A stretch of 64,000 nucleotides of DNA from Norana najaformis. Its lineage: Eukaryota > Annelida > Clitellata > Crassiclitellata > Hormogastridae. Each line of letters begins with the position of its first letter. Position 1 is the stretch's first letter. The stretch lies in contig OZ029919.1 of NCBI GenBank assembly GCA_964023275.1, forward strand, positions 62,001-126,000, given 5' to 3'. The notes under the pieces are model-generated. The model saw nothing but the letters and a program-made list of their open reading frames with translations, was not told the DNA's origin and ran no database searches. This document shows, one piece after another, positions 21,393-63,461 of this stretch. A program made the position numbers and the translations under genes.

Positions 21393-21881
<489 letters not shown>

Positions 21882-34400: not shown

Positions 34401-35517
34401 AATTTGCAGTCTCATCATCAACTCAGGTATTGACAGCTCTAAGTAAGTAAAGTAAGTAAGTAAGACATTTGTTAACTTGCCATGTGTCCATTGGTTGAGC
34501 GAGAAATCATAGGTTCTAGGTCAGAATTTCATCCAATTGATTTCTGTGACACTCTTCTGTTTGGTGTTTATGCCATCATCCATGGCTCTGTATGACGAAC
34601 TCTACAGAGCACAGATCTGTTGGAGTCTAAGAGATTATGACATATAGAAGTAGGTTACATGTGATGAGAAGCTGGGTCTTGAATTAATTGATGTCTTCTG
34701 GTGTTTGACTTCTCGGATTATATTGACCTGATATACATCCAGTTATTTCTTGGGATGGACTATGATTTCTGTTCAGTTGCCAACTAGTATTCTGCAAAAG
34801 TGGTGCTATAGAAATCTGTGGATTGTATCAGATCAGATTGGACTAGATCAGATTGTTAGTGTCAAATGAATGTCAGCTGAAAAAATTGGTAAATAAGGGC
34901 AAGTGACAGTGGTTTCTGTACCTGTTTGTTTGGCAACCCTAATTGGTTTCCACAGTTGGTTGTATTGTTCTGCGCTGTGTCTTGGCAGGTTTCACACAGT
35001 GCCGGTTTGCTGTACGATGCACTCATATTGTGGGCATTGGGCTTCAACAAATCCCTCGATGGCAAAGTCAAGATTAAGGATGGAAAAGCTGTTTCTGATG
35101 AAATCATGCAAATGAAGTTTAAAGGTGAATTATTCATAGGATTAATTACTGAACTTCTCGGGTTGTTTGACAGTCACGATTATTCGGTTTAATTAAATTA
35201 GTTAATTTAATGAAAATTTAAATTGTGTTTATTCTGAGCATTATGTGAACAGGTGGCGCTTCAGTGAGCTTGACTGGACCTGATTCAGTGTTTAAGCATG
35301 TTTTGTGTTGAAGGCATCACAGGAGAGGTGGCCCTGACGTCAGGCGGCCAGCGACTCATGAACTTGGTGATCAGCGTCATACAGAATGGAAGCTTTGTGA
35401 CCGTTGCTGAGTATCATACAGAAGAGGAAAGTTTGGAAATCTTTGACAAAGCTCTTGCGAAGATTGTTTGGCCAGGAGGAAGCAAAACCATGCCAGGAGC
35501 GGGACTTGGCATTGGAG
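31444..35517 (+). CDS. Cyclase 1 ectodomain exons 1-5
   Basis: Exon 1 alone encodes 242 residues. It has a hydrophobic start [18 protein letters not shown] and periplasmic-binding-protein-like ANF-receptor motifs: [35 protein letters not shown] and [19 protein letters not shown]. Exon 4 carries [20 protein letters not shown] and exon 5 ends with SKTMPGAG before the membrane. These match the family block order. Two NxT/NxS sites lie near the N-terminus and one in AAYNIS. Confidence 0.88.
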
Positions 35518-36148
35518 GTTAGACCACAGACGGCTCTTAGCTATCTTAGCTCGCCCGTTTAGTGCTTTTGAAAACTTCACAGAGGATGCTGTGTAAATGA
35601 AAACATCAGCTTACTACAATTCCAAAGTTACACACAAGACCATCAGTTGGATGGTGGACTGTTTTGGTGCATCATACCGCAGTCTCTAATTGTCCAGGCA
35701 CAATTAGAGACTGTGGTATGACGCACCAAAACAGTCCACCATCCAACTGATGGTCTTGTGTGTAGCTTTGGAATTGTAGTAAGCTGATGTTTTGTGCATT
35801 GTGTAGAGTCTGTTTTTGTCTGTGCAAATTCGTGCCTGATATCATTTTGTGCTGATGAGGATTATTCTGCTTCAAGAGTCGTTGTTTGTCCCATGCTGTA
35901 AAATCGTGTCTAATGAGTGACAGAAAAAGCATCTGGATTGGTCCAGGGTTACTATTCCTATGCCATACGAGAAGAGGCAGATGTTAAAGCTGTTGGCTGA
36001 GACTATCGCACGTCATGGCAGAGAGTGGAAGAGTGGCATTATGTTATGCATTTTCCTAAGAGGCTGATAAGAGGAGGAGCTGCAGAAATTTTGTACTAGT
36101 GTAGAAGTAAAACGTGTGCCATTCTGCTGCATTATGTTGCTCTTTGTT

Positions 36149-36185
<37 letters not shown>

Positions 36186-42100: not shown

Positions 42101-44243
42101 TCTGTTGCATGTGTTTCTTTTGTGTTCAACTCCTGGAACCGAACGCTTCCTGTCGATTTTGTTTTGACTAAGCGCCTGTGAATAAGCTGGTTCCTGCAAT
42201 TTAGCTCTTTTAGGCTGCTGTAGAAATCTCGAGCTTATGATTACGAATGTTTAGAATGGAGTAATGGATTCTCTCGCCCACATTTCTATGGTTGAGCAGT
42301 GCGCCTGCATTTGGATGAAGTCTGAAATGGTTTCTTCTTCTTGATCTTAGTCTTTTGGTGCCTTTGGCGCTGCCCCACTTGAAAAATAAAACCCCATTTT
42401 GTCTTGAGCTCAGTGAGAGTAGATAAGATTAGAAATAGGACGCTCGTAAATTCTCTATGTTTTAACAGTAGAAGACTAGAGCATGGCCGTCTTATGTTAA
42501 TACAACACTCGGTCGTAATAAAATATGTTTCCAGTTGCTCCAGACTGATAATTATAAGCGTCTCTTCGGTCCTGTGTGCCGACTGAAAGGCTTTGACAGA
42601 GCCTTCTCCCTCTCTTTTGGACCTCTTCTTGGTTTTAGCTAAGTGCATCCTTGGTGTGCACAAATACCTAATGAATGATTCCCTCCTGGTCGGTGCTAAT
42701 GGACCAGAAATGTAGGCCGTCGCTGGCAAGCTGATCATGATTAGATGACATAGATTTTGACTGAATTATTTTAATTGTGAAGGCATAGAGTGATGTCTGA
42801 TGAACAGGTGGAGACGATTGGCGATGCGTACGTTGTGGCAAGTGGCCTTCCAGTGCGCAATGGCAATGCGCATGTTGTCCAGATAGGAATGTTTTCCCTG
42901 GACATCCTCAGCTTTGTGCTTGGCTTCCAGATTCCACACATGCCGCGCAGAGCTCTGGAGATCCGTATCGGGCTACACACTGGTGCGTAACTGTGTCTGT
43001 CTGTGTGCCTGTCTGTCTGTCTGTCTGTTGCTCACTTTGCCACACCGTCTCTCCTCCCTGTGATTATTATATTTTCCAATTTTCCAACAAAAGACTTGAA
43101 ATTATACGATTGGCAGCATCTGCTGTCATTGGCCGAGTTCTGTTGTCTGTCTTATTCAGGTCCTGTGCTGGCTGGGGTTGTCGGATTGAAGATGCCTCGC
43201 TATTGTCTATTCGGAACAACAGTCGACACAGCCAACTACATGCAAGTCACTGCTCCGGGTAAAGATTCACCAGTTCTGTACTACTCCAGTCTCCTTTAAC
43301 AGATGCTTGGCACTTCTTTGACAATTTGAAGCAGTAAACAATACAGTGCAATGCTATACAATCAATTCTGATGCCTAGAAATCAGGAGAACGACCCGCCT
43401 ATGCACATGTTGGTTGGAAGTGAGTCTCATTTAGCCAGGATCAGCGGTTGGCTGACAATCAGGTGGAAACGTCAGCTGTGTACATTTGGCTGCTGATTGC
43501 CTACTTTGGCAAAACTAAAACTATAAGGAATATGTCTGTGGTCAGTGATGATACTCTGTGTTGCTTATGAACCATGATAAATTGCTGGATTAACTTGAAA
43601 TGTGAATTTTGATTAAGATGAGCTGCCGGACTATTTATTAAGACTGGGTTTATTATCTGATGACAGTGAATTCCATTCATGCCAGTGACACAACAGGAAC
43701 ACTTCTTCTCGAACATGGAAGCTTCATTCTGGCAGAATACATAAAAATGGATTATGAGGTAAAAACAATGGAGATAACGATAATTACAATTCTTAATGAC
43801 TTTAATATTAGAATTGTAATTAATTGTGTAAACTATTTACAACAGAATGTCATTAATTGAAAACAATCAGTCAGTGCATAATCAATTGTCTTGCATGAAA
43901 TTTGAGAGTTGTAGCTTGTACTTTTGAAGCTGTGTGTGAGTGGTAAGTGACAGGTTACCTCCTAGGAATCAGAGGAGAGACTCAGCCAGCCAGTAGAATC
44001 AGTACAGAGGCCTTCATCTTCTTGTTGTTCAGGGCATCTTATGTATCTTTCTGCTTGGAATAGTGTCCGTGAAAATGACGTCTACTAGTTCTGGCTGGAG
44101 GACATCATTAGACAGACTCACGGCATGCCTTCTCACAAGTCCTTTCGCTGTATAATTCCACTTTTAAGTTTATCGTGTATGTTATAGATCTCTATTTTAT
44201 TGTATTAATATTGTTAAACTGGCTAAGAAAGTCGGTACCATAT

Positions 44244-44274
<31 letters not shown>

Positions 44275-44481
44275 TGTCACGAATGTATGCATGCACCTAG
44301 TTTGAATTGGAATTAGTCAGTGTGTTGTTTGCAGGATAAGAAGAATGCTCGGACTTACCGATTACGCGGCCGAAGTACTGCTAAGCGCTTGTCCGTGCCT
44401 GATGCCAGCATGCCGCTAGTTCCTCCATCCGGTGACCTGATGAAGCGCAGAGGTTCAGTTCCAAGTCATCTCCGACCGTAG
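31444..44481 (+). CDS. Receptor guanylate cyclase 1 (complete, 20 exons)
   Basis: Exons: 31444-32170, 33498-33608, 34254-34426, 34989-35124, 35314-35517, 36289-36379, 37145-37241, 37711-37824, 38074-38154, 38383-38559, 38999-39173, 39828-39989, 40214-40415, 41065-41205, 41452-41575, 41997-42065, 42808-42982, 43160-43258, 43667-43758 and 44335-44481 (TAG). All phases join into 1098 residues, normal for the family. Order: signal peptide, receptor ectodomain to about 456, membrane span about 457-480, kinase-homology domain about 551-815, signalling helix 817-863, cyclase domain about 864-1050, and a basic Ser-rich tail. Such receptors make cGMP when a ligand binds outside. The ligand cannot be told from sequence. 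It is paired head-to-tail with a paralogue at 48490. Confidence 0.93.
32400..32470. repeat. (AAT)n / (ATT)n inverted simple repeat
   Basis: An AATAAT run turns into ATTATT, able to fold back on itself, in cyclase 1 intron 1. Confidence 0.8.
32506..32722 (+). mobile_element. tRNA-derived SINE
   Basis: The head has a polymerase III A box-like GTGGTGTAGTGGT and a B box GGTTCGAATC spaced as in a tRNA. CTCATAA sits where the anticodon loop would be (CAT, Met-like). Acceptor-stem pairing is poor, so it is not a working tRNA gene. A tRNA-unrelated body follows (GTGAGGAAGGCAATGGGAAA) to about 32722. It lies in cyclase 1 intron 1. Confidence 0.75.
32885..33130. repeat. Dispersed repeat with TATATAGCGCTC motif
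   Basis: An (AATGTAATGTGT)n run leads into CACTTATATAGCGCTCTTCA, a motif also seen near 26430 (TTTATATAGCGCTG) and, as GCGCTATATAAAT, near 18705. Probably a short retroelement end. Confidence 0.5.
35600..35793. repeat. Near-perfect palindrome, 93-bp arms and 6-base loop
   Basis: Arms 35601-35693 and 35700-35792 are reverse complements apart from about three mismatches, with loop CCAGGC. It is in cyclase 1 intron 5. The transcribed RNA would form one long hairpin. It could be a foldback or MITE element or a replication-slippage inverted duplication. Confidence 0.9.
36140..36200 (+). repeat. (TG)n microsatellite
   Basis: TGTGTG run with TTTG interruptions in cyclase 1 intron 5. Confidence 0.9.
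36289..36379 (+). CDS. Cyclase 1 transmembrane exon
   Basis: Reads [20 protein letters not shown] then [11 protein letters not shown]: an acidic lead, one hydrophobic span of about 23 residues, and Arg at the cytoplasmic edge. The corresponding exon of the paralogue is at 55257-55341. Confidence 0.9.
36765..37045 (+). mobile_element. Family A retroelement 3' fragment
   Basis: Starts with a coding remnant ([13 protein letters not shown]), then the family A 3' end (CTGTCGATTTTGCTTTTGAC) and a GGTTACAATTATG tail, in cyclase 1 intron 6. Confidence 0.65.
37345..37640 (+). repeat. Degenerate tandem repeat (GATTAAATTATTTAGGGC-like)
   Basis: About 14 diverged units of 18-22 bp around GATTAAATTATTTAGGGCCA, in cyclase 1 intron 7. 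Confidence 0.8.
37711..40415 (+). CDS. Cyclase 1 kinase-homology domain
   Basis: Exons 8-13 encode a pseudokinase. The ATP-site Lys is plausible in [10 protein letters not shown]. The catalytic loop reads [13 protein letters not shown], lacking the catalytic Asp as expected for receptor guanylate cyclases, and the DFG site reads ITDYG. Further blocks are [31 protein letters not shown] and [16 protein letters not shown]. In the family this domain binds ATP and relays ligand binding. Confidence 0.9.
37875..38030 (+). repeat. (GGAT)n / (GGAC)n tract
   Basis: GGATGGAC-rich run in cyclase 1 intron 8. Confidence 0.85.
38578..38680 (+). repeat. (TCTG)n / (TC)n tract followed by family B copy
   Basis: TCTCTCTGTCTG repeats in intron 10 of cyclase 1; a family B copy follows at 38690-38775. 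Confidence 0.85.
39345..39482 (+). repeat. Family C dispersed repeat
   Basis: AATGTAAATGTACACGGTTT then CTATAGCGACCCTATGGCCT, a GTGAGATCCTTCACCACC hairpin and CGCCATTTAAGGT. Other copies lie at 30105-30180 and 45815-46000. No coding capacity is seen. Confidence 0.7.
41065..43758 (+). CDS. Cyclase 1 signalling helix and class III cyclase domain
   Basis: Exon 14 gives the dimerisation helix ([19 protein letters not shown]). The cyclase domain keeps both metal aspartates, Asp890 in [11 protein letters not shown] and Asp934 in [15 protein letters not shown], 44 apart as usual. It keeps the guanine selectors Glu930 and Cys1002 (KMPRYCLFG). The usual VNTASRM motif reads VDTANYM, so the transition-state Asn becomes Asp1009 and the Arg becomes Tyr1013. 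Activity is therefore doubtful or altered. Confidence 0.9.
41680..41832 (+). repeat. (TG)n microsatellites in cyclase 1 intron 15
   Basis: Two short TG runs, about 41685-41710 and 41808-41830. Confidence 0.85.
42125..42250 (+). mobile_element. Family A 3' end
   Basis: CCTGTCGATTTTGTTTTGAC, then GCGCCTGTGAATAAGCTGGT, and a TATGATTACGA tail, in cyclase 1 intron 16. Confidence 0.7.
44245..44273 (+). repeat. (CA)n microsatellite
   Basis: About 14 CA units in the last intron of cyclase 1. Confidence 0.9.
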
Positions 44482-46741: not shown

Positions 46742-47800
46742 TAAATGTAATTGTAAACGAACATTTATAAATCGCCACTTAGGAAACAGTGGTGCTCCCG
46801 ACTGGAACAAACAAAAAGGATTTCAGGCGTTTGCGAGACTGGGTAGGAGAGAGACTTAGTAACTGAAGCCGCAGATCAAGAGGAAGGGAGTTCCAGCTGG
46901 AAGGGCCAACAAAGGCAAAGCTCCTGGACTGAGCAGTCGTATTGCGAACGCGAGGGACTACCAAGAGACCACGGGTAGCTGAGCGAAGGGAGGCATGGGC
47001 AGGCAACGAGGAAACCGGAATACAAAAAGAAGTTAAGTAGGACGGAGCAGAGCCTAGAAGGCAGTTGCGCATAAGGATAAGAATCTTAAACTGGATGCGT
47101 TGACTGACAGGAAGCCAATGAAGTGAATCACGAATAAAAGTAGATTTATGAGCAGACTTTGGAAGACCACCGATAAGGCGTGCAGCAGCATTAAGTATAG
47201 GCTGAAGCTTGGAGGTGTTAATTGCAGAAAGTCCAATATAGGCAGCATTGCCAAAGTCAATCCTAGTGCAAATCAGGGCATGGACCAAGGTAGTGATCGC
47301 ATGAAGAGGAAGCGAGTGACGAATAGAGCGGAGTTGTCGTAGGTGGTAAAGACAAGAGCGGGAGATATTATTTACATGGTCAGTCAGAGAAAGAGTTTGA
47401 TCCAGGATGATTCCGAGGTCACGGATTGAGGAAGAGAAGTGGATATGAGGGAAATTAGAGGAAAGGGAACTAAAGTCAATTTTGGTAAGCTGGACACGGC
47501 CACCTAGCCAGATATATTGAGTCTTATCAGGATTAAGACAGAGGCGGTTAGAAGACATCCAGAGATCTAGAACAGAGGTGGCCTCAAGGATCCGCTCAAC
47601 CATCAGAGTGGCTGAGGCAGCCGGGCCATAAGTAAAGGATTGAGTGTCATCAGCATATTGGTGAGACAAAACACCCACGGGAAGAAGTATACAGGTCAGC
47701 AGTATATAGGATATATAGAAGCGGTGCAAGTACCGAACCCTGGGGAAGACCATAGGGAATGTGAGTCCAGGCAGAGCGAGTGGGCCCAAAAATAACAGAA
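46742..47800 (-). mobile_element. LINE reverse transcriptase remnant, minus strand
   Basis: On the - strand: YGLPQGSVLAPLLYILYTAD, then after one frameshift QYADDTQSFTYGPAAS, SSNRLCLNPDKTQYIWLGGR, LDQTLSLTDHVNNIS, FIRDSLHWLPVSQRIQFKIL and FAFVGPSSWNSLPLDLR. These are palm, thumb and C-terminal blocks of a CR1/Jockey-like element. The 3' part, over 280 codons, is uninterrupted, so it decayed recently. Endonuclease and N-terminal RT are missing. Confidence 0.9.
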
Positions 47801-47819
47801 AGGGAGCGATCAGAAAGAA

Positions 47820-47835
47820 ATGAAAAGAAGAAGGA

Positions 47836-47876
<41 letters not shown>

Positions 47877-47877
47877 A
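47820..47877 (+). repeat. (GAAA)n microsatellite
   Basis: About 13 GAAA units; Lys/Glu-rich and Phe/Leu-rich open frames over it are artefacts. Confidence 0.93.
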
Positions 47878-47884
47878 ACCTCTA

Positions 47885-48305
47885 ATGCGCTGGTGTCTAA
47901 TGCACATAGCATCAACCGATTTTGCACCAAACCCAAGCCGCAATCGTAATCGTAATCTCGAGATTTCTACAGCGTCCAACGAAAGCTAAGTCGCGGCAAC
48001 CAGCTTATTCATAGGCGCTCAGTCAAAACAAAATCAGTTCAATATCCAGAAGGTCAGTCCACAAGACAGAGAGACAGCCTACGGTGGATAAACAATCTGA
48101 AAAAGGTAAGTTTTGAGTTGAGAACGAAGTGACAGAAGCGACTGAGGAGAACGAACTGATACAGGGAAGGCGTTCCAAGAATGGGGTAGATCATCAAAGA
48201 AATAAGCAAGAAATGGCTATAATCGTAATCGTAATCTCGAGATTTCTGCAGCGCCCAATGAAAGCCAAGTCACGAGTGCTTTCGAAATCTCGAGATAATG
48301 ATTAT
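47885..48305 (-). mobile_element. Family B copy joined to two family A copies
   Basis: A family B copy (47885-47940) runs directly into a reverse family A copy (47940-48075, starting CAATCGTAATCGTAATCTCG). A second reverse family A copy lies at 48215-48300. The shared AATCGTAATC tail marks their 3' ends. Confidence 0.7.
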
Positions 48306-48489: not shown

Positions 48490-51400
48490 ATGTTGAAAGT
48501 TGAACTTCAACTGGTTATTCTTATTTTCCATGCATGCCGATATTTAACGGATATAATCGATTCGAGGCCAAAGTTAATTTTGGTTTTTGTTTTGGATATC
48601 GACAAATCTGGTCCCATTCACAATGGTAACAGAATGATGGGAGCTATTCTAAACAGCGTCAATCGGGCACAAGAAATCCTTCCCGAATTTGACCTCAGCG
48701 AGTGGGAATTTATAGACTCTGCGTGTAATCCTGTAGTTGCCAGTCAACAGCTATTGAAGATATGGACACGTTTAGCCAGGGATGGTAAGCGAATCAATGG
48801 CATCATTGGTCCGTATTGTGTAAGGGTCTGCGAAATAACTGGTGCTTTTGCCGCCTCCTACAACATACCAGAGATTGCTCATGGCTGTCAGTCTGAAAAA
48901 GTGGGCAACGCAGAGCTTTACCCGACGCTGGTACGTGTAGTTGGAGAAATTGGCATTGCTTCCGGGAACATGATGCTGTATCTGATAAAGTATTTGAATA
49001 TTGAAAAGTTGGCGATTTTGTTAACTGAAGAAATGCATATTATTGTTGAACTTGTACATTACATTGCTAAACGCATCCAAAAGGTTGTGAGTCCAGATTA
49101 CGATTACACCGTAGTATACATTGAATCAACGATGGTACCACATGAAGACCCAGCAAGCTTTAAAGTCAATATCATCCACAAACTGCTGTATCTGAGGAGC
49201 AAGGGGTATCAAGGCAGGTATTGTGTATACCATTCAATAGCCGATTTTATTTGTTTTAGTGCCTTTATAAATTTAAGTTACCTATGAACGATGCATAGAG
49301 CCTGCAGTGGCATCGATCCATTCTCAAAACCAGGGAGACACATCCTTTCTCTTCTCACCTTTGCTCTTTCGGTTGCACTGTTACATTTTATGCTACACAC
49401 AGGATGCTTATTAGTTTTTGTTTTATTACTTTGACTGTTTTACCTATAGCAGAATTGCAGAAAAAATACAGTAGTGACATAAATTGCCAGCATCCTTTGG
49501 TAATACGATCTCGGCAGAAGGACATAATGGCCTTAGCAATCCTGGACCGGTACAGGTATGGGTAGTTACCAACAACCATCAAATCCCAGGCCATGCAACA
49601 GCTCCTGCCTACGGATTACCTCAAACCCCAGTGGGGTGGAAGAGACAAGCCGGATGGTTTAGTCGTGCATGAATACTGATAGTAGAGTCTGATATGCACC
49701 CAGTGAATGATCTAGAGACCATACGTTGATGAGCCTGGAACCCTTTTTCTCCAGGTGGGGGACATGGAATATCCTGTCCTTCTTAATCTCTACTGTCATC
49801 TTACCCCTCCTTTGACACTTTCACTAAAGTTTTTGACAGGTATAGAATTTGCTTGCACTGCTCAATCATAAAATTGTAATTTTGTACTTTTCTTGCAGCT
49901 TAAATGACTTTTGAGTGAAGTTTATATTAGGTTTTAACTACAATTTTTCTTCATCAAAGCCAGTCAAAATCCTAGTTTGGGCCTTTGGTGGATTCATTTA
50001 GGGCCAGCAGCTGGCTTAAAATTAGACTGTAGTTAAGTAAAAGGACTGCTAAGGTTTTTTAGGCAGCTGAGAGTAAGCTAAAAGTAGCATATCCAATAGA
50101 AAATCCAAGAAGTTATTAGTACTTTTCGGATTTTATTTAAGATGCATAATATCAGCAAAACCAAAGATGTGGCTGCTTGGTGTTGTTGATGTGAACCTGG
50201 CTGACACACTGAATTTCAGACAAATTTGAGACAAGCTGAATTAGTAATTGGACAGGTGAAATAGCAACTGCATTGAAGCCTTTTGGCCTTGTTTTTATGC
50301 CAACATGTAATAAAAGACAGGCTTAGGTATTTCTACCCTCCGATGTCAGGTTCCTTTTTCTGCTCTTTAGAACCATTTAAAATAAATTTCACAATTAGAT
50401 GTGTTTTTGAATATGTAGCACATTGAGGTCCTTTATTGATGGGTGGCTGGGTAAATAAGAGGTTAAGAGGGTGCCCTGTCATTGGGTTGCTGTGGTGAAA
50501 GCAGTTCCAAAAAATATTGTGATTGGTTCGTGTGACCAGGATATGGAAATTTGTTTCAAAAAATAGAACCGTTCTATCATTACATTTTGCTGTGACTTGA
50601 TTCATCCAAATCATCTTTGTCCTAATTACGGTTGCCTAAATATGGACTGCATGGGTGACTGCTCAGGTAACTAAGCGCAGCGTAGAAGGAACTAAGCTTA
50701 ACACAGAAGGAACTAAGCTCAAAATAGAAGAAACTATGTTGGAGCCCAATCCCCATTTTATTTAGATGTTAGGCTTTTCAGGGCTTAAGCACCAAACAGT
50801 TTAATCCTGAAGTTAACTTATTGAGCCCATTAAACACTTGGTCTTCAGGCTACCTACCACAGTTATGGGGCTCCCTGCAGGTATCCAATGACAGGCCTAA
50901 TTTCGAGTCTGGTTTCAGTTGTGGCCCAAATCTCAAAATTCAGGTTCTTTGTCTACAGCTGAACAGTGAGGGCTGTTAATTTAGTTGATGCATTTTTCTG
51001 CTGACACTCTGCACCTACTTGTTGGACCCAAAAGCAAAGGAAAATCCAAAGGCCCAAGCCAGCTATGGCCCCTCCTTCCATTTAAATCTGATAGCCAGCC
51101 ATGTTTCAGCACCTTTGACAGGTTCCCAAAGGTGCTATATAAATGATCAGATGCATGCTTACATATATACATACATATATACTTACTTACTTACAATATT
51201 TAGTAAATCATTCATTGGAGTTTGTGTGAGGGGCAAACCCGAGGAAGACTTGTTTTAACGAACTTGTTGCATGACAATTGATTTTTCTTGCAGTATTTTT
51301 TCTTGGAACACTGGAAACTGATACCAAGTATATTCTGCAGATTGCCTATTCCATAGGAATGATGGATGGCAAATCAGTTTTTTTGACAAGCCGATTGTAC

Positions 51401-54272
51401 TTTAGTAAGTTGTTTTCAGAAATTTCTATCTGCCTTTACTGGAGTCTGCCTACTTAAGAACAACTGACAGAAATTACTTCGACTTTTTCTCATTTCCAAG
51501 GAAATTAAATGAATACTATGAGAAATGTTACAGTAAGTTTATGCATCGAATTGTGGCCAATTGTAAGCCACTGTATGATTATATCATCAGCTTGTTTAAG
51601 CGTAAGTTGGATTGCTTTTAAATCAGCCAGGTTTGCTTTGCAATCTGATGTTTGAACCAGTCTCCATAGAGATATTTCAGTCATAAGTTACACCATGTCA
51701 TCATTGCTAGTTTTCAGTGGATGACAATCTAATCTGTAAGTAATCTGTAAGTACTTCTCTAGTGCTGTTGGCATAACATGCAAGGCATAAGATCATCTTA
51801 GGGTCATAATGCCTCAGACAGATCCAGTCTGAGTTGTCTGAGAAACAAGAATGCAGGCTAATCCAAGTTAATTCAACATGCAGGCCAATGCTGTTGTAAT
51901 TTAATTCAAACACTTTTAAGCTCTTTGTTTTGGCTGCATAACATATGGAAAAATTTGAGTGAATGCTCGCTGCTGCAGAATGATTGATCACCATAACAGG
52001 AAATTCGACCAGTTCAGTGCAGTTTGCATGACGAATGTAATGGCTGCCCATCAGGTACTGAATCAGTTAGGTAGTGGGGTTGTTTATATGCAACTGCGCT
52101 GAGCATTTATGAACAGACTCATTACACTATGTACGCCAATCTCGCCTATTGAGAGCCAAGGCTACTTGAGTTCGGCAATGATATGATGTTCGAAGTTTGG
52201 CAGTTGCTGACTGTCTGGAACAGTGGATCACCGGCAGCGCTTGTACCATCTCTCCCTTGATCAGTGTAGGAAACGACTTAAAACTGTGATGTTCTATCTA
52301 GCATATCCACATGAATGAGTGAGCCGGTAGCAACAATGCAGGCGATAAGGGATCTGAACCAATAATTGTAGTAGTTGGAGTAGTAGTAGTAATAGTAATA
52401 ATAATAGTTGCCTAGTAACCTACGACACATGAATTCCTTGCTCTATCTCTGCCTCTTTTCAGTAGGCATTTGAAGCTGTTTTGTTTGATTATGGCCTTGC
52501 GTTGTCAGGTTGGAAGTGCCTCTGAGGAAGTTCTCTTGAAGTGGTGCTATGCAAATTCGTGATCATGAATGATAGTAAGAACAATAATAATGTAATAATA
52601 ACTGTGAATTTGATGTTAACTATGTTGATGGTGTAACGTGTTTAACAGTAGAAGGGATGGACAGACCCAGTCGTCCACAATTGAACAGGGATTTGATGTT
52701 GGCTGAAAATGGACTTATAGTCTTCAATTATAAACTGCCTACAACAAAAGAGTATCAAGCTTTCATGACAGAAATTACAGACACTGCAAAATACTTCAAC
52801 GATCCACGCTTGCGGAGATTCAAACCAAACAGAACTTTTACAGCGGAGCAGGTTACTGCAGAGCAGTGATTCAATCTATTTTAATTTCAGTACACTCAGC
52901 TACAACAGCATTAAGTAATGTGATTTGAAAAGATGTTTATCACTTTTGGAGTAATTTAACTACGGTAATGTTTAAACTGTTTGGCCAGTTTCAGTGTGTT
53001 GTTTGCTAGGTCTGTGCAGCTATTCAAAACAATGTGTAGCTGAATGTTATATTTTTAGATTTGCAAACACCTTTTGTGTTACAATAGAAAGGACTGAGAT
53101 CTACCTGAATTACATGCATATCAAGGGCTAACTTTGTAACACTTAGCTGATATTTTCTGAAATTTATTGTTGAGTGCTTTATCAATGGCAAATCTTTTGG
53201 TTGGGTTTTGAATTGCAGTGTATTATAGAACTGGGTTGTTTTCTTTGTTGCTGTAGCTTCATGTTGGTGCTGCACTGATGTATGATGCTGTCAGTCTGTG
53301 GGCATATGGTATGAAGAAGGCCTTGGCATATACTTGGCCTGGAGACGGACACTTCATTACGAGTCAGATTCTCAAAGTCAAATTTGAAGGTGAGGCAGAG
53401 GTTTCATGCTGCATTGAAAGCACTGGATACAACAAAGAGAAGATGTTTGCTCGTTTCTAGGAGGTCGTTTGTTTTGAATAAAAGAATAGCAGATCTGATC
53501 TGATCTTAACTGATGGATCCAACTACCAGTGTTTCTCTGAAGTTTTGTTGAACTCACTTTCTCGCTGGCTTACCACCATAATCTAGATTTCTAACTGCAC
53601 TTCACCAAGTAAATGGTGAATAGCTAACCACACCTCGGATTTGCATAACATAATATAACATAAAAGAGGATTTATGAAGCGCAATTTCAAGAAAAAACTC
53701 GTCAGTTGTGCTCCCAACCAATCCGAAAAGACCCACGGTCAAACAGGACGGATTTCAAGCGATTGCGGAACAGAGAAGGTGACAGCTGATTAGCTCATTT
53801 CTAGTTTTGTAAGGAATGTTGTTCCAGGATGCTGGACCAACGAAAGCAAATCTTCTATGCTGGGTAGTAGAGGCCCAAGCCCAAGGGATGACGAAGGCTC
53901 TGTGAGTAGCCGAACTGAGGGAGCTATGACCAGGAATAGTTGAGGCAGAGGTACAAACAGACCTCAGAGAGGATAAGGGTAATTCCCACCAAACAGTCTG
54001 GTTGACTTTGCACATGTTAAAAATTTTCGTCATCATAATAATAATAATAATATAAAAATATATTTCAGGTATAACAGGAACCATTGTTCTAGATGAAAAG
54101 CGATCGAGAAGGTTGGACTGGGTTGTACAAGTTATTCAAAATAATGGAAGTTTTGTGACAGTCGGATATTATAAAAACAAGGAGGCTGTGCTAAGTATTT
54201 ATGAAGATGCTTTTGAGAACATTACATGGCCAGGAGGTGTCAAGAGGATGCCAGGAGCGAAGTGGAGGAAAT
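48490..54272 (+). CDS. Cyclase 2 ectodomain exons 1-5
   Basis: Exon 1 has ANF-receptor blocks [34 protein letters not shown] and [14 protein letters not shown]. Exon 4 has [20 protein letters not shown] and exon 5 has [11 protein letters not shown] (its first Gly is split with exon 4) and the KRMPGAKW end. Against cyclase 1 the ectodomain is much more diverged than the kinase-homology and cyclase parts, suggesting a different ligand or relaxed constraint. Confidence 0.87.
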
Positions 54273-57200
54273 GTAAGATTTCATGACCAGTCTTGTCTTT
54301 CTTCAGTCTTGATCCAAACGTTGATGTGTACCATTTTACATGACTCATATAACATTTTCAACCTATCTTATTAATTATTAATTGGAAACTTCTATAGCAC
54401 CAGTGTCTAATGCACGTGGCATAAACGAATGGTGCACCAAATTCAAGCCACAGTCAGGTCAACATCCAGAAAGTTGGTCCACTGAAACCGAACTTGCATC
54501 ATTTACATAGGTTTTCAAGAAATCCCACCCTGATCCATTAAATCCGCTGCCTACCCATTTCTCTCAGCTTAAACACAACCCACCCTAACAGCTCCTTTCC
54601 CCATTCTCCTCTGGTCTTCTGGCAACCGAACTTGGTTCTTGACATGGCATCTTTGGACAACCCTCACTGACTTGACGCAGCGCTCGTGAATAAGGTGGTG
54701 CCCTTTAGAAATTTGGAGTTTACGATTATGATTAAATAGCCATGTACTTGGTGTTTGTGAGAGTTCCTTAAAATTTACTGTGTCTGGAAATGTATACATG
54801 CATAGATAATAATTAGCAACTTCTGATGCTCCGGTGTCTAATGCACAAGGCATCAACCGATGGCACAGATATTGTACATACTGGGTACATCGATTGACAG
54901 TGGTTTTAATTCTAATGCTCCTTTTGACGTCGCAGAGCATGCAGAATAATAATCATTTCTGATTTATGAAAAGCCTCAGTGAAGCTGATTGTTAGCTTCA
55001 CTGAGGCTTTTCATAGATCTATAACAAGGCTGACAAATTTTCCGGTGGATTAAGGTGGAATAGGTTGGCAGTTGCAATGAATACTAACTGGTGGATCAGC
55101 GCATGTGGTATGAAGAAACAGTGCAGAAACGAAATCTAGCAAGTGGCAGTAAGACAGTTTCCGTGGTTATATATATCTATATATATATGTGTGTGTGGGT
55201 GGGTGTGGGTGTGTGTGGGTGTGTGTGTGTGTTACTAGCTGTTGTATAAATTTCAGCTCTTTCCTTTGCGGCCTTGATTTCAATTGGTTGTGTGATGGGT
55301 TTAATTGCTATTGGAATATTTGTACTTTGTCTTCTTTACAGGTAAGTACTGTGGAATGAATTCGGATTTGTCAAGATTACTTGGTTATCCGTGTTATAAT
55401 TAACATGAGCAGTAATGCAATGAAGATAATATTCTGTAAATTTCTCTGGTCAGTAGTAGAATATTGATAATATTATTAGATTGTTGCCAGATTCTCAAAT
55501 GCTAATTTTCAGTATGTGGCACAAGATGAAATGAAAGCAGATCCGGATTATTTCTTTGTGACAGAAGCATAACCCAACTGAAAGAAAAGTAGACAATCTT
55601 TTAAGTTATAATTTTAATGGTTTTGCTAAACGTTAGACTTTATGTTCAATGGTTGCAAGATGATTTATGTAATGGTAGGAAATTCCAAAATGACATGGAG
55701 TTGGAGAAGACCTTGGCCTGGTTGATTCACTGGGAAGATATCAAACTTAGCAGTCGCTACAAAGAAAAATCGGTTAGCTCCTTCTCTCCTTACATACAAT
55801 CTTTAGATGTATGCTCATTTTAATATATCTTTACTTTGTAATTTTACCCCAGTTTCAACCATGTTTCAGTGAACAACTCAATCGAGTGTTGTTCAAGTCA
55901 CATATCATAATGGTAAGCTCGAGATTTCTACAGTGCCGAATGAAAGCTAAGTTGCAGGAATCAGCTTATTCACAGGAGCTCAGTCAGAACAAAATCAATA
56001 GTTTTGTAAGGGTTTGGTTCCGTTTCAAGATCCAAGGCAGGAGGCCAATGTAATAGGTCAAAGCTGATGGGAATCAGTAAGTTCTTGGCCAGTTTTCTTA
56101 GAACAGTGCTGAAAGATGAACTGTTTCCTCTGCAATTTACGGGTAATCGAATGATAAACTCAGTAAGGGGATGAAATGCAACCCCATAACTAACTTCAGT
56201 TATCCTATGGAATCGGCTTCACACCAGCAGGTACTATGCCTTGTCCTACCATACATCTTACAACAGTTGTACTTCATTTGCTCATATATTACCATCATCT
56301 GTTTTAACTTGTCCTAGCCTTCTGTTTGTGTCTGTTGATTTCTTTTAGGATGCTCTGTCTCATTCATCCATCTTCTCCAAATCGTATCATTCTGTTGCAA
56401 GCGGATCACAAGTGACAGATGTGAAATCATTTGAGAGTTTTGGTACAGGCGAACTAACACAGTTCGGTTACTATCAGGTATTTGCTAGAAATTCATTGTA
56501 ATCCATTATTTTGTGATACAGATTAAGGGAAGCGTCTTACTTAACGTTTGGGTTATTTATTTAATTATTTTTACACTTGGGCCATGAGACAAGTGTGTGG
56601 GGAACAGTTTGTCCAGAGTCATTATGTGGAGTGCACTCAGCAGGCGTGAACCCACAATCATTGGATTACGAACCCATTTTTGTACATTTGTAATCTTGTT
56701 TAGGCAGTGTGACTGCTGATTGGGTATAATGCATGTATTTTGAACTTCTATGGCACACGATGCACTTGGCTTAACTCATCAGTGAAGATTGACTGAGTTG
56801 CTTCATTTCACTGCTCTAAAAACTCCAACTGCAGTTATTACATTTCTCAAACAAAAGTTGATCTCAGCCGTTTTAATGCTTCACGTTATCAACTGATGGG
56901 ATATTTCTGACCTTTATTTGTATAGATTTACCTGACCCAGTTTTAGGCTTTTTAAGTGACTGTGTACATGCATTTGATGCTGATTACTGGGGTGATACAA
57001 TTGCAGACTGGTTAACGCTTGTAACTTTGATTGTGTGAGTTGAAGCCTCTCCTGAGCTTAGGAATATTGACATGTAATAAAACCCTGGCATTATGTTGGA
57101 ATGTTAGAAACATTATGCTTCAGTGAACTTCATTGCTGTCTCTAATCACAGATTGTTTTCCCGTCTGTCTATCTGTTTTTGTTCATATGTCGGTTTTGTC

Positions 57201-60200
57201 TGTGTGTCTCTTTATGTTTACTCATGGTGTCTGCCTGCCTGTCTGAATGCTTGTAGGATAAGAAGATTGTTATTAAATTGTCACCACTGACGACATTGGA
57301 TATGAGAGATAACAGGATACGCTTGGAGTTTATGAAGGTCAGTGGGTTTCATTTTCTTTATCCTCTTCCATTCGGTTTCTTTCTCACAGTCTCACTTGAC
57401 TATTTGCAGACAAGAGAAACTACACGACTGTCAATTGCCTTGTGCATTATGATAACGATGCTGTAGACGTTATTAGATTAGTAGCAATGCTCCAGCTATA
57501 CATCTTGGATTGTTTTTCATAAATGTGGTGTCGCAAAGTGCATAACAACCCTTGCATGACTGTTCTCTTGGTTCTCCTTGATGGCTTATATGCACCAGAC
57601 TCCAAACAGAAATTACTATTTACACCCGGCAAATTGCCTCTGTCACTTGCTTAACCATATATCAGCTTCTGAATTCTTGCTTAGTTTATCATAAATACGA
57701 GCTTCAGTTCTCCTAAAGCTTAGAATAAATTGCCTGTGGGCAGCATTCTTCTTACTGTTGCAAGAAGAGATGACGCGATTGTTTGATTTTGCCTCAAAAC
57801 TGGGCACACTGAATTGAAGAAATGTATTTGTGCAGATACGAAGAATGCATCACTTGAACATCAACAGTTTCGTTGGCGCATGTGTTGAGCCTACTCATGT
57901 ATGCATTTGCATGAACTACTGTCCTAAAGGAAGTGTTTGGAATGTCATCGAAAAGAGGTCGTTTAGCATGACCTGGCATTTTCGAATGGCTCTTGCGGTA
58001 GACATTGCAAAGGTATCTATATGTAAAGCTACTAACAGATAACCTATTGTTTATTCTCATTAATGCCAAGAAATGAGAACAATAGCTACTAACAGATAAC
58101 CTATTGTTTATTCTCATTAATGCCAAGAAATGAGAACAATAGCTACTAACAGATAACCTATTGTTTATTCTCATTAATGCCAAGAAATGAGAACAATAGC
58201 TACTAACAGATAACCTATTGTTTATTCTCATTAATGCCAAGAAATGAGAACAATAGCTACTAACAGATAACCTATTGTTTATTCTCATTAATGCCAAGAA
58301 ATGAGAACAATAGCTACTAACAGATAACCTATTGTTTATTCTCATTAATGCCAAGAAATGAGAACAATAGCTACTAACAGATAACCTATTGTTTATTCTC
58401 ATTAATGCCAAGAAATGAGAACAATCTACTGACTCATCTTGCACCACGAGTCCTGCTTTTCTGCTTTACGTTTCTTCTGAATTTACCTCAAACTATTGTC
58501 GGCATTTGATAAGTGAGTGATAGAATTAAAATTCCGTTTGTTAGGGAATGACTTACCTGCACGAGTCTAAAATTGGTTCACACGGTCATCTGACGAGTAC
58601 GAACTGTGTCATCGACTCCAGGTGGACGTGTAAGATCACCGATTACGGACTGTGCTACATGCGAAGGGGTCATCTTCTTCAACATCATCCGCAGCACAGC
58701 ACGGGCAGCATCCAAGATGAAGATTCCAACGATGACAGATGTACGTACAAGAAACTAAGTCAGATTCTCATGTAAACAACTGTCACCCATGTAAACAACT
58801 GTCATCAATGTAAACAACTGTCACCCGTGTAAACAACTGTCACCCATGTAAACAACTGTCACCCATTCCACTGTTATTGGCTCTAAAGCATTGACTAAAG
58901 TGCCACTTGTTAAAGAACCCATAGCTTGGAACCACTGTTATCATATACAGTCTTCATACTAAGATGATAATGATATTAATCAGGGATGCAGTACTTGGTG
59001 CTTGTACTTCTACTTGAGTGGTATCTTTTTCAAGTACTTTTCCTCATAATTTGCTACCAAAATACTTTGGTACCACGTTACATTCATATGAGTTTATAGC
59101 ATAGAGCTGTAACTTTTAGACTTGGTGTTATGTGTTCTCTTATTAAAGCCCTTCTCTTACATTTATGATTTGACTAACTGCTTAGATTATCTTTGGATGG
59201 CACCGGAATTGCTTCGCATTGTTCCTTCGAAGCGGCCGTTATGCGGAACGAAGAATGCAGACGTTTTCTCATTTGGCATCATCCTTCAAGAGATCTGCTT
59301 TCAGCAGAAGCCTTTTGGGATCTTCCTCGATGAATTTGGTGCCTCTGGTAAAGAGGCCTTTGACGTCTTCTGCTTTGCATTGTCATCTTACTGTTTAGCA
59401 ATCTTTGTTTCCTTTCAATTTGTCCCTGCGTTCTGCTAATACCAAGAACTGTCGTCAATCCTAATATTCGTTAGAACTTTGTCACTTGCATTTCTATGTA
59501 CTTTTGTAATGAGGGAGATTAGATGAGCAGATAGGATGAGCCACAGATTACATGAGAGACCTGTGTTGGAAGGCACAGTCCTAGGAAGACTAAGTAGCAG
59601 ATGTAAACCACCAATGGATTGTATTGCAACTGTATTGAAAGAAACTGTCATTTACTTTGCTATGAAATAGCAAACCCGGAAAGGCAGAGCAATACTTCTA
59701 ATCTGTAAAAGAAAATCTTCTATTACAAATGGTGGAGTTAAACTTTTCTTCCTGTTCTGGCGATCTTGGCATTGGTGATGATGGTGAAGTGTTTGACTTT
59801 TGTGTCGTTTGACAGAAATAGTGTCCCGCGTCAAGCGAGTCCAGAAGCCTCCATTTCGGCCGGTGGAGCCGGAAGACAAAGCAGAGATGACAGGTGATAC
59901 TGTGAGATACAGCAGCAAATGGATGGACCTCATGAGGTCATGCTGGGCTGAGAAGCCTGAGGAGAGACCGACGTTTCAGAACATAATGCAAACGCTCAGG
60001 CGCATCAGTGGAGGACAGTGAGTCATTTATTTTCATATCAAAGTTAACATTTTCAGCTATCTTAAGAAGCACTTTTTCAGGTCTCTCGAACAGCCATGTT
60101 TCAGTGTCCAGTGAGAGGTACCTAATGTTCAGCTATAGGCATACATCATAAGAACATGAATTAATTATTTCACATTTCTCTGCATCAGTCTTACCCCTGG

Positions 60201-63200
60201 AAGAAAATGCAATGGATCTGTTTTGTCATTGGATTCCCTGCCTTATGTGACACCCTTGAATCATGCATCTATGCGCAGAAATCAATTTCTTAGGCCAGTT
60301 AGTATGTATGTATGTATTTATGTATGTACAATGTATGTGTATGTCTGTATGCATCATGACATTTAATATAGGACCTTTTAAGTACCTGACAAAAGCTCAA
60401 GGCTGTCCACCTCCCTGGGTCGTAGTTTGTTAGTATATAAATTACCGGTAACGTATCGCCAGAAAGTCATAAATTCTAATGTTGAACTTCTTTAATAGTT
60501 TAAATTTGAAAAGACTTTTGTGAGGCACTCAAAACGCGCTATACTATCTGCATACAGTATAGTGACTTTTATCTGTGTCAGGACAATCCATGCCATAGAT
60601 AACATGGTGAAGATGTTGGAGGTTCATACAGTCCGACTGGAGAATATCGTACATGAAAGGAGTCAGGAGCTTTACGAGCAGAAACAGAGAGCTGACTCAC
60701 TTCTCTACAGCATCTTGCCTAAGTATTTTACTTCACTCATTACTGCATCTTACCAAAGTATATCAGTAGTCATTGAATGTTAAATTTCATTCAAGTTCTG
60801 CAAATTGCACATACAGTAAGTTGAGGATGCTCAGCATGTATGTAGGAGAATCGTAGTCGTAAACTCGAGAACTGGCGCCCAATGAGAGCCAGGCCGCGAG
60901 AACCAGCTTATTCACAGGCGCTCAGTCAAAACAAAATCGATAGGCAAGAAGGGTTCAGTTCCTGGTCAAGATCCAAGAGTCAGGTAGACAGGCAGTCAGA
61001 CAGATATGGTGTTTGGTGTTTGAAACTGAATCTGTAGGATAGATAAGGGGAAGAAGAGAAATCAGGATAGGATGCGGGGAAGAGGAGTGAGAAGGCATAG
61101 CAATTCTTTGAAAGCCAGTTAACATTGATTGCGATGATTCTTGTACAGTGACTTTACACGAGAACCTGTATGACAGTAATTTTCTAGAGGTTATTTGGGG
61201 AGAATAAAGAACAGATGACAAGATCAATTAGAAACCAAAACGATGCTGCTGTACAATGCTTTTTGGGAACTTCTGAGAAGGTTCTTTTCCCAAATACGTC
61301 CCCTTTTCATTAATTACAGCTTTTTACTGTGCTACTTTAAGAGTTGTCGCAGAGCAGTTGAAGCAAGGTAGTAAAGTCTTACCAGAACACTTTGAAGCAG
61401 TGACAATTTTCGTCTCCGATATCGTTTCGTTCACGCCGCTTGCAGCAGCCAGTACTCCACTACAGGTTGTCTACTTCCTTCTTTATAGTTACATTTTCTA
61501 GGAACATTTTGAGGAGGATGAGTCGTTGAAAGCCAATTTTTAATGCCAGTGAGACCTAGAACTGAAATAAATTTGATAGTCCATGAGAAAATGATTTGAA
61601 AAATGTACTAACGGGGTCCAGTGGCTGCCTGTCAACTAACTGGCTAGGCAAGATAGCAAATATGCCGAACGAGTGATTTGAAAATAAATGAATGTTTCTT
61701 TTTGAATAAATTAAATTGTTCAACATTTACTTATAAGATATTGATGATTTTGGTCAGTCTTGAAACGTTTTTATATCTGTTAAAACTTTTGTTTAATTAT
61801 TTTCAACATTTTTATAACAGAGGGCATTAATTTTTCATTTTTTATCAGTGAAGGGCTTTCGTTTTCTTTCGTTGCAGGTGGTTACCTTTCTTGGGTTGTT
61901 GTACAATATGTTTGACGAGATCATTGATCGTAATGATGTCTACAAGGTCTGTCACAAATTAAGCACTTACTTATGCTCATAGCTGCCATCCGTTGATTTC
62001 TTGTTGGTTAGAAAAATTTTATTTGCACCACTTTAAAAGCTGCTATATCAGTTGAACATTAGAAAAGTTTTTCCTTAATTATGTAGAGCTGTTTTTTGCC
62101 TAATAGATCTTGTTATTTGCCAAACACCAGAAAATACAAACCCTGATGAGAAAAATTGCTGAAGTGATTTACCATTAAGTAGTAAACTGCCATAAAGTAA
62201 GTAAGTAAGTATATTCTTTATTAACCAATAGCTAATCGCACATCGGTTTACAAGTATTTAAGAACACAAGAAAACTTATTATTCATACAACATCATAAAA
62301 ATAAAACATTTACACCTTAAATTGTCAGCAGGAGGAATAATACGATCATGGGTGTGGGGTCGTAGGGAATATCTGAGGGTTTTAACTGGTGGGAGCAGCT
62401 GATGTAAGACATGATTTGGATTGTTCAAGATTGCCTTAAAGAGACGAGCATCGGCTATGCCACAGAGTTCATCGAACGTTGTGGAGTTCCCAGGAAGATA
62501 GTGGAGACGCACAAGTCTCCGCATCAAAGCCTGGAGCCGAGCCCTGGCCTGTGCCCCAGCATAGCCCCACCACACGGGAGAGGCGTACAGGATCCTGGCC
62601 AGTGTTGTGGCTCGGACAACGTCGTAGAGCCGAGGGCCAGTCAGGCCATGTGCTACAAGAATTCGTATGGCATATAAAGACTGACGCGCCTGACTATGAA
62701 TCCGATCAATATGAGAATCAAAATTTAATTTTAAAGAAATTTCTAATCTGAATGTAACGGATTCTTGCAGTGAGGATTAATTTTTACATTGCAGTATTTA
62801 TACCGCTTTCAGCTGGAATCATGTTAAGGAATTAGAGATGAATGAAGTAAACTGATCTCTACATTCGGTCATTTTAAAGTGAACATGGTTTTTGTTTTGC
62901 TTGCCTGATGTTTTATGAGACTTCTTTAATCATTTTGCTTTTTGCTGTTTAACTGAATGTAAACTGTTTGACAGGTTGAGACGAGTGGTGATGCGTACAT
63001 TGTAGCAAGTGGCCTGCCAACACGGAATGGCATTGCTCATGCTTCAGAGATTGCCACTTTTGCTCTGCAGCTTCTCAACTCCATTCTGAAGTTCAAAATT
63101 CCTCACATGCCGGACAAAGTTCTGGAAATACGAATCGGTCTACACACCGGTCAGAGACAAGTCCATTCAGATCTTATTTCCATGAGCAATATTCCTTGCA

Positions 63201-63461
63201 CTTTTATATTCTATAGCACTCTGTATTAACTGGAATTCAGATGACAAGGGTTGCGAGCAGAACTTAGTAGAGAGACATTTGTAATATAACTTGATTTGTT
63301 GTTTCTCTAGTGAGATGCAGACTATGTTGCTACGAATTGTTGTTTCTTGTGCATTGATTTAGGTCCTGTATTGGCCGGGGTAGTTGGTCTCAAGATGCCA
63401 AAGTATTGTCTGTTTGGTCACACAGTCAGCACGGCTTACATCATGGAAGAAAGCTCTCCAG
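48490..63461 (+). CDS. Receptor guanylate cyclase 2 (18 exons, 3' end outside window)
   Basis: Exons: 48490-49213, 51294-51404, 52649-52851, 53257-53389, 54069-54272, 55257-55341, 55679-55772, 56349-56477, 57257-57337, 57836-58012, 58545-58740, 59186-59347, 59816-60017, 60582-60722, 61342-61465, 61878-61946, 62975-63149 and 63363-63461. These give 1036 codons. The last two exons, equivalent to cyclase 1 exons 19-20, are expected beyond 64000. Domain order equals cyclase 1. All shared phases match and eleven exons have the same length, so the genes are tandem duplicates. The start ATG precedes a hydrophobic leader ([20 protein letters not shown]). Intron 1 needs a GC donor to stay in phase. 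Confidence 0.9.
49220..51293. other. Cyclase 2 intron 1, no gene
   Basis: Over 2 kb of mostly unique sequence. A tandem-looking AACTAAGCNNAG stretch occurs near 50670-50735. No coding exon recognised. Confidence 0.5.
53640..54010 (-). mobile_element. LINE reverse transcriptase 3' fragment, minus strand
   Basis: On the - strand: [20 protein letters not shown] then [20 protein letters not shown], the C-terminal block also present in the 46742 element. A short AT-rich tail faces left. It ends about 60 bases before the exon 5 acceptor of cyclase 2. Confidence 0.8.
54385..54740 (+). mobile_element. Family B copy followed by family A2 copy
   Basis: Family B core (AGTGTCTAATGCACGTGGCA) at 54385-54485 leads into the A2 element, which matches 1660-1905 in reverse and ends TTTACGATTATGATT. 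A second family B fragment follows at 54818-54875. All lie in cyclase 2 intron 5. Confidence 0.65.
54965..55015. repeat. Perfect 22-bp inverted repeat with 7-base loop
   Basis: Arms 54965-54986 and 54994-55015, loop GATTGTT. It lies in cyclase 2 intron 5, the intron that in cyclase 1 holds the long palindrome. Confidence 0.9.
55165..55232 (+). repeat. (TA)n and (GTGTGG)n tracts
   Basis: Short TA and GT runs just before the transmembrane exon of cyclase 2. Confidence 0.85.
55257..55341 (+). CDS. Cyclase 2 transmembrane exon
   Basis: Reads [20 protein letters not shown] then IFVLCLLYR, one hydrophobic span ending in Arg, two codons shorter than the matching exon of cyclase 1. Confidence 0.88.
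55915..56055 (-). mobile_element. Family A 3' end, minus strand
   Basis: CTCGAGATTTCTACAGTGCC then AATCAGCTTATTCACAGGAG-like and a GGTTCCGTTTCAAGATCC block, in cyclase 2 intron 7. Confidence 0.65.
56349..60017 (+). CDS. Cyclase 2 kinase-homology domain
   Basis: Exons 8-13. Key blocks are [27 protein letters not shown], the catalytic-loop variant [55 protein letters not shown] and [12 protein letters not shown]. It is a pseudokinase like that of cyclase 1. Exon 11 is seven codons longer than in cyclase 1, in the activation-loop region. Confidence 0.88.
58027..58425 (+). repeat. 57-bp minisatellite, exactly 7 units
   Basis: Units start at 58027, 58084, 58141, 58198, 58255, 58312 and 58369 and are essentially identical. 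Each contains TACTAACAG and an imperfect hairpin (ATTGTTTATTCTCAT with ATGAGAACAAT). Since 57 is a multiple of three, a minus-strand frame stays open as seven 19-residue repeats, which I do not regard as a gene. The array begins 14 bases after the exon 10 donor of cyclase 2. Confidence 0.95.
58768..58866 (+). repeat. 19-bp tandem repeat, 5 units
   Basis: Unit CATGTAAACAACTGTCACC, five copies with slight variation, starting just after the exon 11 donor of cyclase 2. Confidence 0.9.
60582..63461 (+). CDS. Cyclase 2 signalling helix and cyclase domain (partial)
   Basis: Metal aspartates are kept: Asp907 in [11 protein letters not shown] and Asp951 in [15 protein letters not shown]. Glu947 and Cys1019 (KMPKYCLFG) are the guanine selectors. 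The transition-state motif reads VSTAYIM where VNTASRM is usual, so Asn is Ser1026 and Arg is Ile1030. Two further invariant positions differ: Gly to Ser910 after the first Asp motif and Ile to Ser949 before the second. The enzyme looks more degenerate than cyclase 1. Confidence 0.88.
60848..61005 (-). mobile_element. Family A 3' end, minus strand
   Basis: CGAGAACTGGCGCCCAATGA then CCAGCTTATTCACAGGCGCT and GGTCAAGATCCAAGAGTCAG, in cyclase 2 intron 14. Confidence 0.7.
62185..62745 (-). mobile_element. LINE 3' fragment, minus strand
   Basis: On the - strand: [20 protein letters not shown] then [20 protein letters not shown], the C-terminal end of another non-LTR reverse transcriptase. It ends with AATAAAGAATATACTTACTT, a polyadenylation-like signal and an (ACTT)n tail. 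It lies in cyclase 2 intron 16. Confidence 0.8.

Follow-up and report, generated by a model that had tools for sequence, protein, structure and literature searches.

The window analysed here, 64,000 nucleotides of the annelid Norana najaformis (contig OZ029919.1 of assembly GCA_964023275.1, positions 62,001 to 126,000), contains two receptor guanylate cyclase (rGC) genes in tandem, both on the + strand: gene 1 at 31444-44481 and gene 2 from 48490 to past 63461. In both genes the transition-state Asn and Arg (NxxxR) of the cyclase domain have been replaced (D1009/Y1013 in gene 1 and S1025/I1029 in gene 2), while the two metal-binding Asp residues and the guanine-selecting Glu and Cys are present. 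Two subunits share each class III cyclase site: one gives the metal Asp residues and the phosphate Arg, the other the base residues together with Asn, Arg and a Lys (PMC7384201, PMC6592433); the core catalytic residues of ROS-GC1 are listed in PMC9849996. From the comparisons described below, we consider there to be about an even chance that both genes encode full-length, selected rGC subunits whose cyclase domain has turned into a metal-supplying, C1/alpha-type half, working in a heterodimer with a complete rGC.

Exons were located by comparing gene 1 with gene 2 and reading the flanks, and the gene models were built with boundaries set by hand. Gene 1 comprises 20 coding exons encoding 1098 residues with no in-frame stop, and all 19 of its introns are GT-AG. 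Gene 2 comprises 18 coding exons (48490-63461) encoding 1035 residues within the window, likewise with no in-frame stop; its C-terminus lies beyond the window. Sixteen of its 17 complete introns are GT-AG and one is GC-AG, and a GT donor follows exon 18. The preliminary description of this DNA had judged the reading frames and nearly all splice sites intact, and the models agree. The GC-AG intron is intron 1 of gene 2 (49214-51293), modelled as AAG/gcaggt ... tcttgcag; a model with different ends for exons 1 and 2 broke the frame, and both this donor and the point where exon 2 ends were picked to fit. Intron phases agree at all 17 introns common to the two genes, an agreement that is partly circular because the gene 2 boundaries at exons 1 and 2 were chosen to keep the frame.

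By descent both proteins are rGCs, with an ANF-receptor ectodomain, one transmembrane segment (recognised by eye), a kinase-homology domain, a linker and a class III cyclase domain, in that order. In gene 1 a hydrophobic N-terminus, also recognised by eye, precedes this series and a C-terminal tail follows it. Pfam matches are strong for ANF_receptor (2.2e-31 in gene 1, 4.1e-29 in gene 2), PK_Tyr_Ser-Thr (4.2e-37 and 1.3e-34) and Guanylate_cyc (1.3e-49 and 4.4e-42), and the linker-plus-cyclase stretch of gene 1 is 58% identical to that of human GC-A (NPR1) and 54% identical to that of GC-C.

The active-site residues are distributed over corresponding exons of the two genes. Exon 15 (41452-41575 in gene 1, 61342-61465 in gene 2) encodes the first metal Asp, D890 in SDIVGFT and D906 in SDIVSFT, respectively. 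Exon 17 (42808-42982 and 62975-63149) encodes the guanine Glu (E930 and E946), the second metal Asp (D934 and D950) and the phosphate Arg of the RIG motif (R981 and R997). Exon 18 (43160-43258 and 63363-63461) encodes the retained Cys (C1002 and C1018) and the altered motif. At this site human GC-A and GC-C carry VNTASRM in an ungapped alignment; gene 1 has VDTANYM, in which Asn has become Asp1009, Ser has become Asn1012 and Arg has become Tyr1013, and gene 2 has VSTAYIM, with Ser1025, Tyr1028 and Ile1029 at the same three positions. Both the altered motifs and the intact metal Asp, Glu and Cys had been reported in the preliminary description and are confirmed here. Its residue numbers hold for gene 1 (Asp1009 and Tyr1013); those given for gene 2 (Ser1026 and Ile1030) are one higher than in the present model. 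Extending the motif by two residues gives DTVNTASRM in GC-A and GC-C against TTVDTANYM in gene 1 and HTVSTAYIM in gene 2. Both copies of exon 18 have an AG acceptor and a GT donor and join their neighbours in phase. The codons at the Asn and Arg sites are GAC (43225-43227) and TAC (43237-43239) in gene 1, and AGC (63428-63430) and ATC (63440-63442) in gene 2. Each Asn replacement requires a minimum of one base change and each Arg replacement at least two. Each gene has its own set of replacements, so either the two losses arose separately or they are old and the residues have drifted since.

Further departures accompany those at Asn and Arg. Both genes lack the Ser of alpha4 and the Asp of FGDTV, and gene 2 also departs beside the metal Asp residues (SDIVSFT and ETSGDAY). 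Exon 19 of gene 1 (43667-43758) ends in E1050, which aligns with the first Lys of the NPR1 sequence KGKGK (the tongue Lys, in the beta7-beta8 loop); the next tongue Lys, K1052, is present. We take the lost residue to be the counterpart of AC2 K1065, and K1052 could substitute for it. Exon 20 (44335-44481), the last of gene 1, carries the stop codon.

Some transcripts might conceivably regain Asn and Arg through an alternative exon or through RNA editing: the models derive from genomic sequence only, and just 539 bases 3' of gene 2 exon 18 lie in the window. The preliminary description had held that such an exon would overturn its claim. A tblastn search of the window, which for gene 2 reaches as far as 64000, with the NPR1 and GC-C versions of the exon found no alternative exon carrying Asn and Arg. 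Among the matches listed, the good ones to the two human versions all fall in the exons already known (E 6.4e-13 to 1.5e-11); the best of the others have E values of 0.83 and 1.1. Editing from A to I would be unable to make an Asn codon from GAC, or an Arg codon from TAC or ATC. We regard restoration at the transcript level as extremely unlikely.

The distribution of substitutions bears on how specific the loss is. NPR1 and GC-C have the same residue at 89 of the 142 columns of the cyclase alignment; of these 89, 70 are kept by both window proteins, one of the two departs at 7, and both depart at 12. Within DTVNTASRM four of the nine columns depart in both (D, N, S and R), whereas in the remaining 80 columns eight do so (one-sided Fisher p = 0.017). 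Five of the eight outside the motif are conservative, and the remaining three are N911 to G in both proteins, D912 to M and L, and S1016 to V and E. On this alignment the loss is concentrated in the DTVNTASRM motif, yet it reaches outside it. The preliminary description had proposed a specific loss without pseudogene decay: no sign of decay was found, but more than Asn and Arg is lost, since the alpha4 Ser, the FGDTV Asp and, in gene 1, the tongue Lys are gone as well.

Comparison of the two genes with each other points to continued constraint on the cyclase domain. Identity between them is lowest around the transmembrane segment (24.8%, all 101 residues aligned) and in the ectodomain (32.1%, with 442 of 450 aligned). 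It rises to 58.1% for the kinase-homology domain, where all 265 residues align, to 71.0% for the linker (all 62) and to 72.9% for the cyclase domain (all 140). The ratio of replacement to silent divergence (pN/pS) is 0.67 for the ectodomain, 0.34 for the kinase-homology domain, 0.26 for the linker and 0.32 for the cyclase domain, with 47 silent and 36 residue-changing differences in 141 cyclase codons. Constraint on the cyclase domain is thus similar to that on the kinase-homology domain, and no stronger, which argues against decay. Exon 18 itself divides into two parts. Its first 19 codons have 11 silent changes and one replacement (18 of 19 residues unchanged) and its next 11 codons, which hold the motif, have two silent and six replacement changes, so the cyclase fold stayed constrained while the motif face was free.

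These figures also bear on early pseudogene decay, or an artefact of assembly or annotation, as the source of the altered motifs. In favour of such an origin, the evidence is genomic DNA only, exon boundaries were set by hand and some were chosen to keep the frame, and gene 2 has a GC-AG intron and a 3' end outside the window. Yet the 1098 and 1035 codons are free of stops, the shared intron phases agree, the domain scores are strong, and silent changes outnumber replacements in the cyclase codons. Decay or artefact is very improbable on this evidence.

The loss follows the division of the active site between subunits. Across the two genes, the metal and phosphate side (the metal Asp pair and the phosphate Arg) is kept at six of six positions, and the C2-type catalytic residues at none of five (Asn and Arg in both genes, and the tongue Lys in gene 1). 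Fisher's test gives p = 0.002 for this comparison, which is descriptive more than proof, the counts being entered by hand, post hoc and from two paralogous genes. The guanine-selecting Glu and Cys are kept in both. Judged by these residues, the loss is half-sided, most of the C2-type half of the active site being gone, and both genes have the make-up of a C1/alpha-type half-site, with the metal Asp pair and phosphate Arg kept and Asn and Arg replaced.

Half-site class III cyclases and degenerate rGCs are already known. The alpha subunit of soluble guanylate cyclase (sGC; 6jt0_A and others) resembles the window genes in keeping both metal Asp residues, Glu and Cys and lacking Asn and Arg (VTLANKF, where sGC beta has VNLTSRT). 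Unlike them, it is soluble and haem-partnered, has no ectodomain and has a known beta partner. The motif of the AC5 C1 domain is VTLANHM, with Thr and His for Asn and Arg, against VNVASRM in the C2 domain of AC2, and the C1 domain of transmembrane adenylyl cyclases keeps the metal Asp residues and phosphate Arg. An Ala-Asn step in the motif is common to gene 1, sGC alpha and AC5 C1. The sGC alpha subunit needs its beta partner for activity (PMC5225109). In the Toxoplasma ATPaseP-GC, the GC2 domain has Leu and Met for Asn and Arg and keeps both Asp residues and the phosphate Arg (PMC6592433); here, as in the transmembrane adenylyl cyclases and unlike in the window genes, both halves lie in one polypeptide.

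Another precedent is NeoR of chytrid fungi, which has Thr and Lys for Asn and Arg and, like the window genes, keeps the metal Asp and base residues (PMC12264004). According to the same source, NeoR alone made no cyclic GMP (cGMP), and pairing its cyclase domain with either RGC1 or RGC2 gave active mixed dimers, RGC2 being inactive alone. In the full-length NeoR/RGC1 dimer the active site consists of the base residues of RGC1 and the metal Asp residues of NeoR, and activity rose ninefold once the other site was made unable to bind nucleotide (PMC12264004). NeoR differs from the window genes in being a fungal rhodopsin fusion clustered with its partner genes, of which none is seen in this window. 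Some rGCs of C. elegans are missing residues that bind GTP or Mg, and the hypothesis is that they are obligate heterodimers; the intracellular domains of ODR-1 and DAF-11 worked only when expressed together (PMC8045692, PMC5225109). These degenerate nematode proteins are like the window genes in being rGCs without catalytic residues (PMC8045692, PMC5225109). GC-A and GC-C share the same kind of linker and cyclase domain with the window genes and differ in their intact VNTASRM.

No ANF-type rGC with this loss of Asn and Arg was met in the open literature searched, mostly at title and abstract level; the available parts of PMC1435932 and PMC3863949 do not mention such a loss, and a coral rGC is reported with its catalytic residues kept (PMC6787079). 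Nor did that literature show a pair of ANF-type rGCs in which the Asn/Arg side alone is gone, and the papers on pseudo-cyclases found in it did not, as listed, concern rGCs. Relatives were also sought by pattern scans of viral contigs (54 matches, none confirmed) and of bacterial and archaeal genome contigs (64 matches, none confirmed), collections in which animal genes are not expected.

By analogy with these systems, the most likely arrangement is that each window protein forms a dimer with a third rGC, complete and encoded elsewhere, the contacts being made by the kinase-homology domain, the linker and the cyclase domain. One of the two sites of the mixed dimer would make cGMP using metal Asp residues from the window protein and Asn and Arg from the partner. 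The other would bind GTP without cyclising it, the kept Glu and Cys being able to hold guanine, and may regulate the active site. The window protein would contribute its own ligand-binding ectodomain to the pair. The preliminary description had suggested that partners, including a heterodimer of the two proteins, might supply the missing residues. The pairing of gene 1 with gene 2 fails in this respect, as both proteins lack the same half and neither site would be complete. A gene 1 homodimer, a gene 2 homodimer and the 1+2 dimer are all without Asn and Arg, and therefore a third, complete rGC is needed.

Several points weigh against such a heterodimer. No partner gene is seen in the 64-kb window, which contains no third rGC, whole or fragmentary (none of 63 tblastn matches at E 0.01 falls outside the modelled exons). 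Mammalian rGCs are homodimeric (PMC5225109), heterodimers of ROS-GC1 and ROS-GC2 are few if any (PMC9849996), and ODR-1/DAF-11 heterodimers are described as not formally proven in their own cells (PMC8045692). NeoR stayed inactive after Asn and Arg had been put back (PMC12264004), so more than these two residues may be involved. A cyclase structure with GTP bound shows no hydrogen bond between the Asn and the ribose (PMC7384201). Glu and Cys are kept though the C2-type half to which they belong would be unused, which is equally so in sGC alpha. Finally, the high identity of the cyclase exons is accompanied by a silent divergence (pS 0.567) below that of the other regions (0.72-0.81), and gene conversion could be the cause.

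The same residues have to be weighed for receptors that make no cGMP at all. The window proteins might be pseudo-receptors or decoys that bind ligand and either dampen complete rGCs in a dominant-negative manner or act as scaffolds through the kinase-homology domain, a reading that is doubtful but deserves consideration. It accords with homodimers and 1+2 dimers lacking Asn and Arg in both sites, and with the intact ectodomain and kinase-homology domain of both genes. A pure scaffold, however, has no need of the metal Asp, Arg, Glu and Cys residues that both genes keep, nor would it lead one to expect a cyclase domain as constrained as the kinase-homology domain (pN/pS 0.32 and 0.34), and if a decoy paired with a complete rGC, one of the two sites would remain whole. 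Alternatively, homodimers or the 1+2 dimer could be ligand-gated GTP-binding receptors whose output, in place of cGMP, would be GTP occupancy, relayed either to neighbouring receptors or to the kinase-homology domain. Both sites of such dimers, in which the metal Asp, Arg, Glu and Cys residues are all present, could bind GTP but would never cyclise it. We consider this unlikely; if receptors of this class do signal without cGMP, the class would need a second output.

A slim prospect is that cGMP is still made, slowly or through residues standing in for Asn and Arg. Some class III enzymes of bacteria can do without the Asn, Rv1900c having His at this site (PMC4886424). In the window proteins, Asp or Ser at the Asn site and Tyr at the Arg site could give some polar contacts, and gene 1 keeps K1052. 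However, the Arg is conserved in the 20 mycobacterial proteins described in PMC4886424, and Ile1029 of gene 2 cannot stand in for it. The Ser that contacts ribose (PMC7384201) is lost as well, as is the first tongue Lys in gene 1, and NeoR, with its Thr and Lys, is inactive alone (PMC12264004). An altered reaction, which the preliminary description had raised as a further possibility, was considered in the form of cyclic AMP production and rejected, the guanine-selecting Glu and Cys being unchanged.

If the proposed heterodimer with a complete rGC exists, pairs of metal-supplying and catalytic rGCs may occur beyond nematodes, and the window genes would add one more example of the division of labour known from fungal NeoR, sGC and the adenylyl cyclases. 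They would also offer a direct route to testing how a single active site shared by two subunits is controlled by one ectodomain.

The window DNA is eukaryotic in character, with 41.7% G+C, and is rich in repeats and retroelement remnants. Between the receptor genes, a 395-codon open stretch on the - strand (46782-47966) contains a reverse-transcriptase-like YADDTQ, has no Pfam match at E 0.01 and resembles pieces of 19948-20710 (-). The intron before exon 17 of gene 2 holds a 165-codon open stretch (62282-62776, -) that on visual inspection resembles the tail of a non-LTR retroelement and has no Pfam match. Intron 10 of gene 2 contains an array of 57-bp units (58027-58482); five overlapping 171-nt windows of it are 100% identical, and the expansion is therefore recent. 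A dispersed, SINE-like repeat of about 70-100 bp occurs on both strands, with copies in introns of both receptor genes (8141-8238, 42149-42246, 47943-48036, 55904-55997 and 60875-60946); listed pairs are 79-88% alike, and further copies 62-64%.

A search with Rfam at the gathering threshold and a transfer RNA search of the window returned nothing. Upstream of the receptor genes, open stretches at 2967-4343 (+) have HATPase_c_3 matches below the Pfam cut-off (E 0.008 and 0.0011) and resemble a MORC-type ATPase in sequence; a MORC-like gene may thus sit there. A 34-bp minisatellite runs from 9483 to about 10870 (33 overlapping 300-nt windows) and leaves a 494-codon stretch open on the + strand. 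A reverse transcriptase remnant lies at 21776-22183 (+; RVT_1, E 3.3e-07), accompanied by a 119-nt inverted repeat (21486-21604 and 21780-21898).
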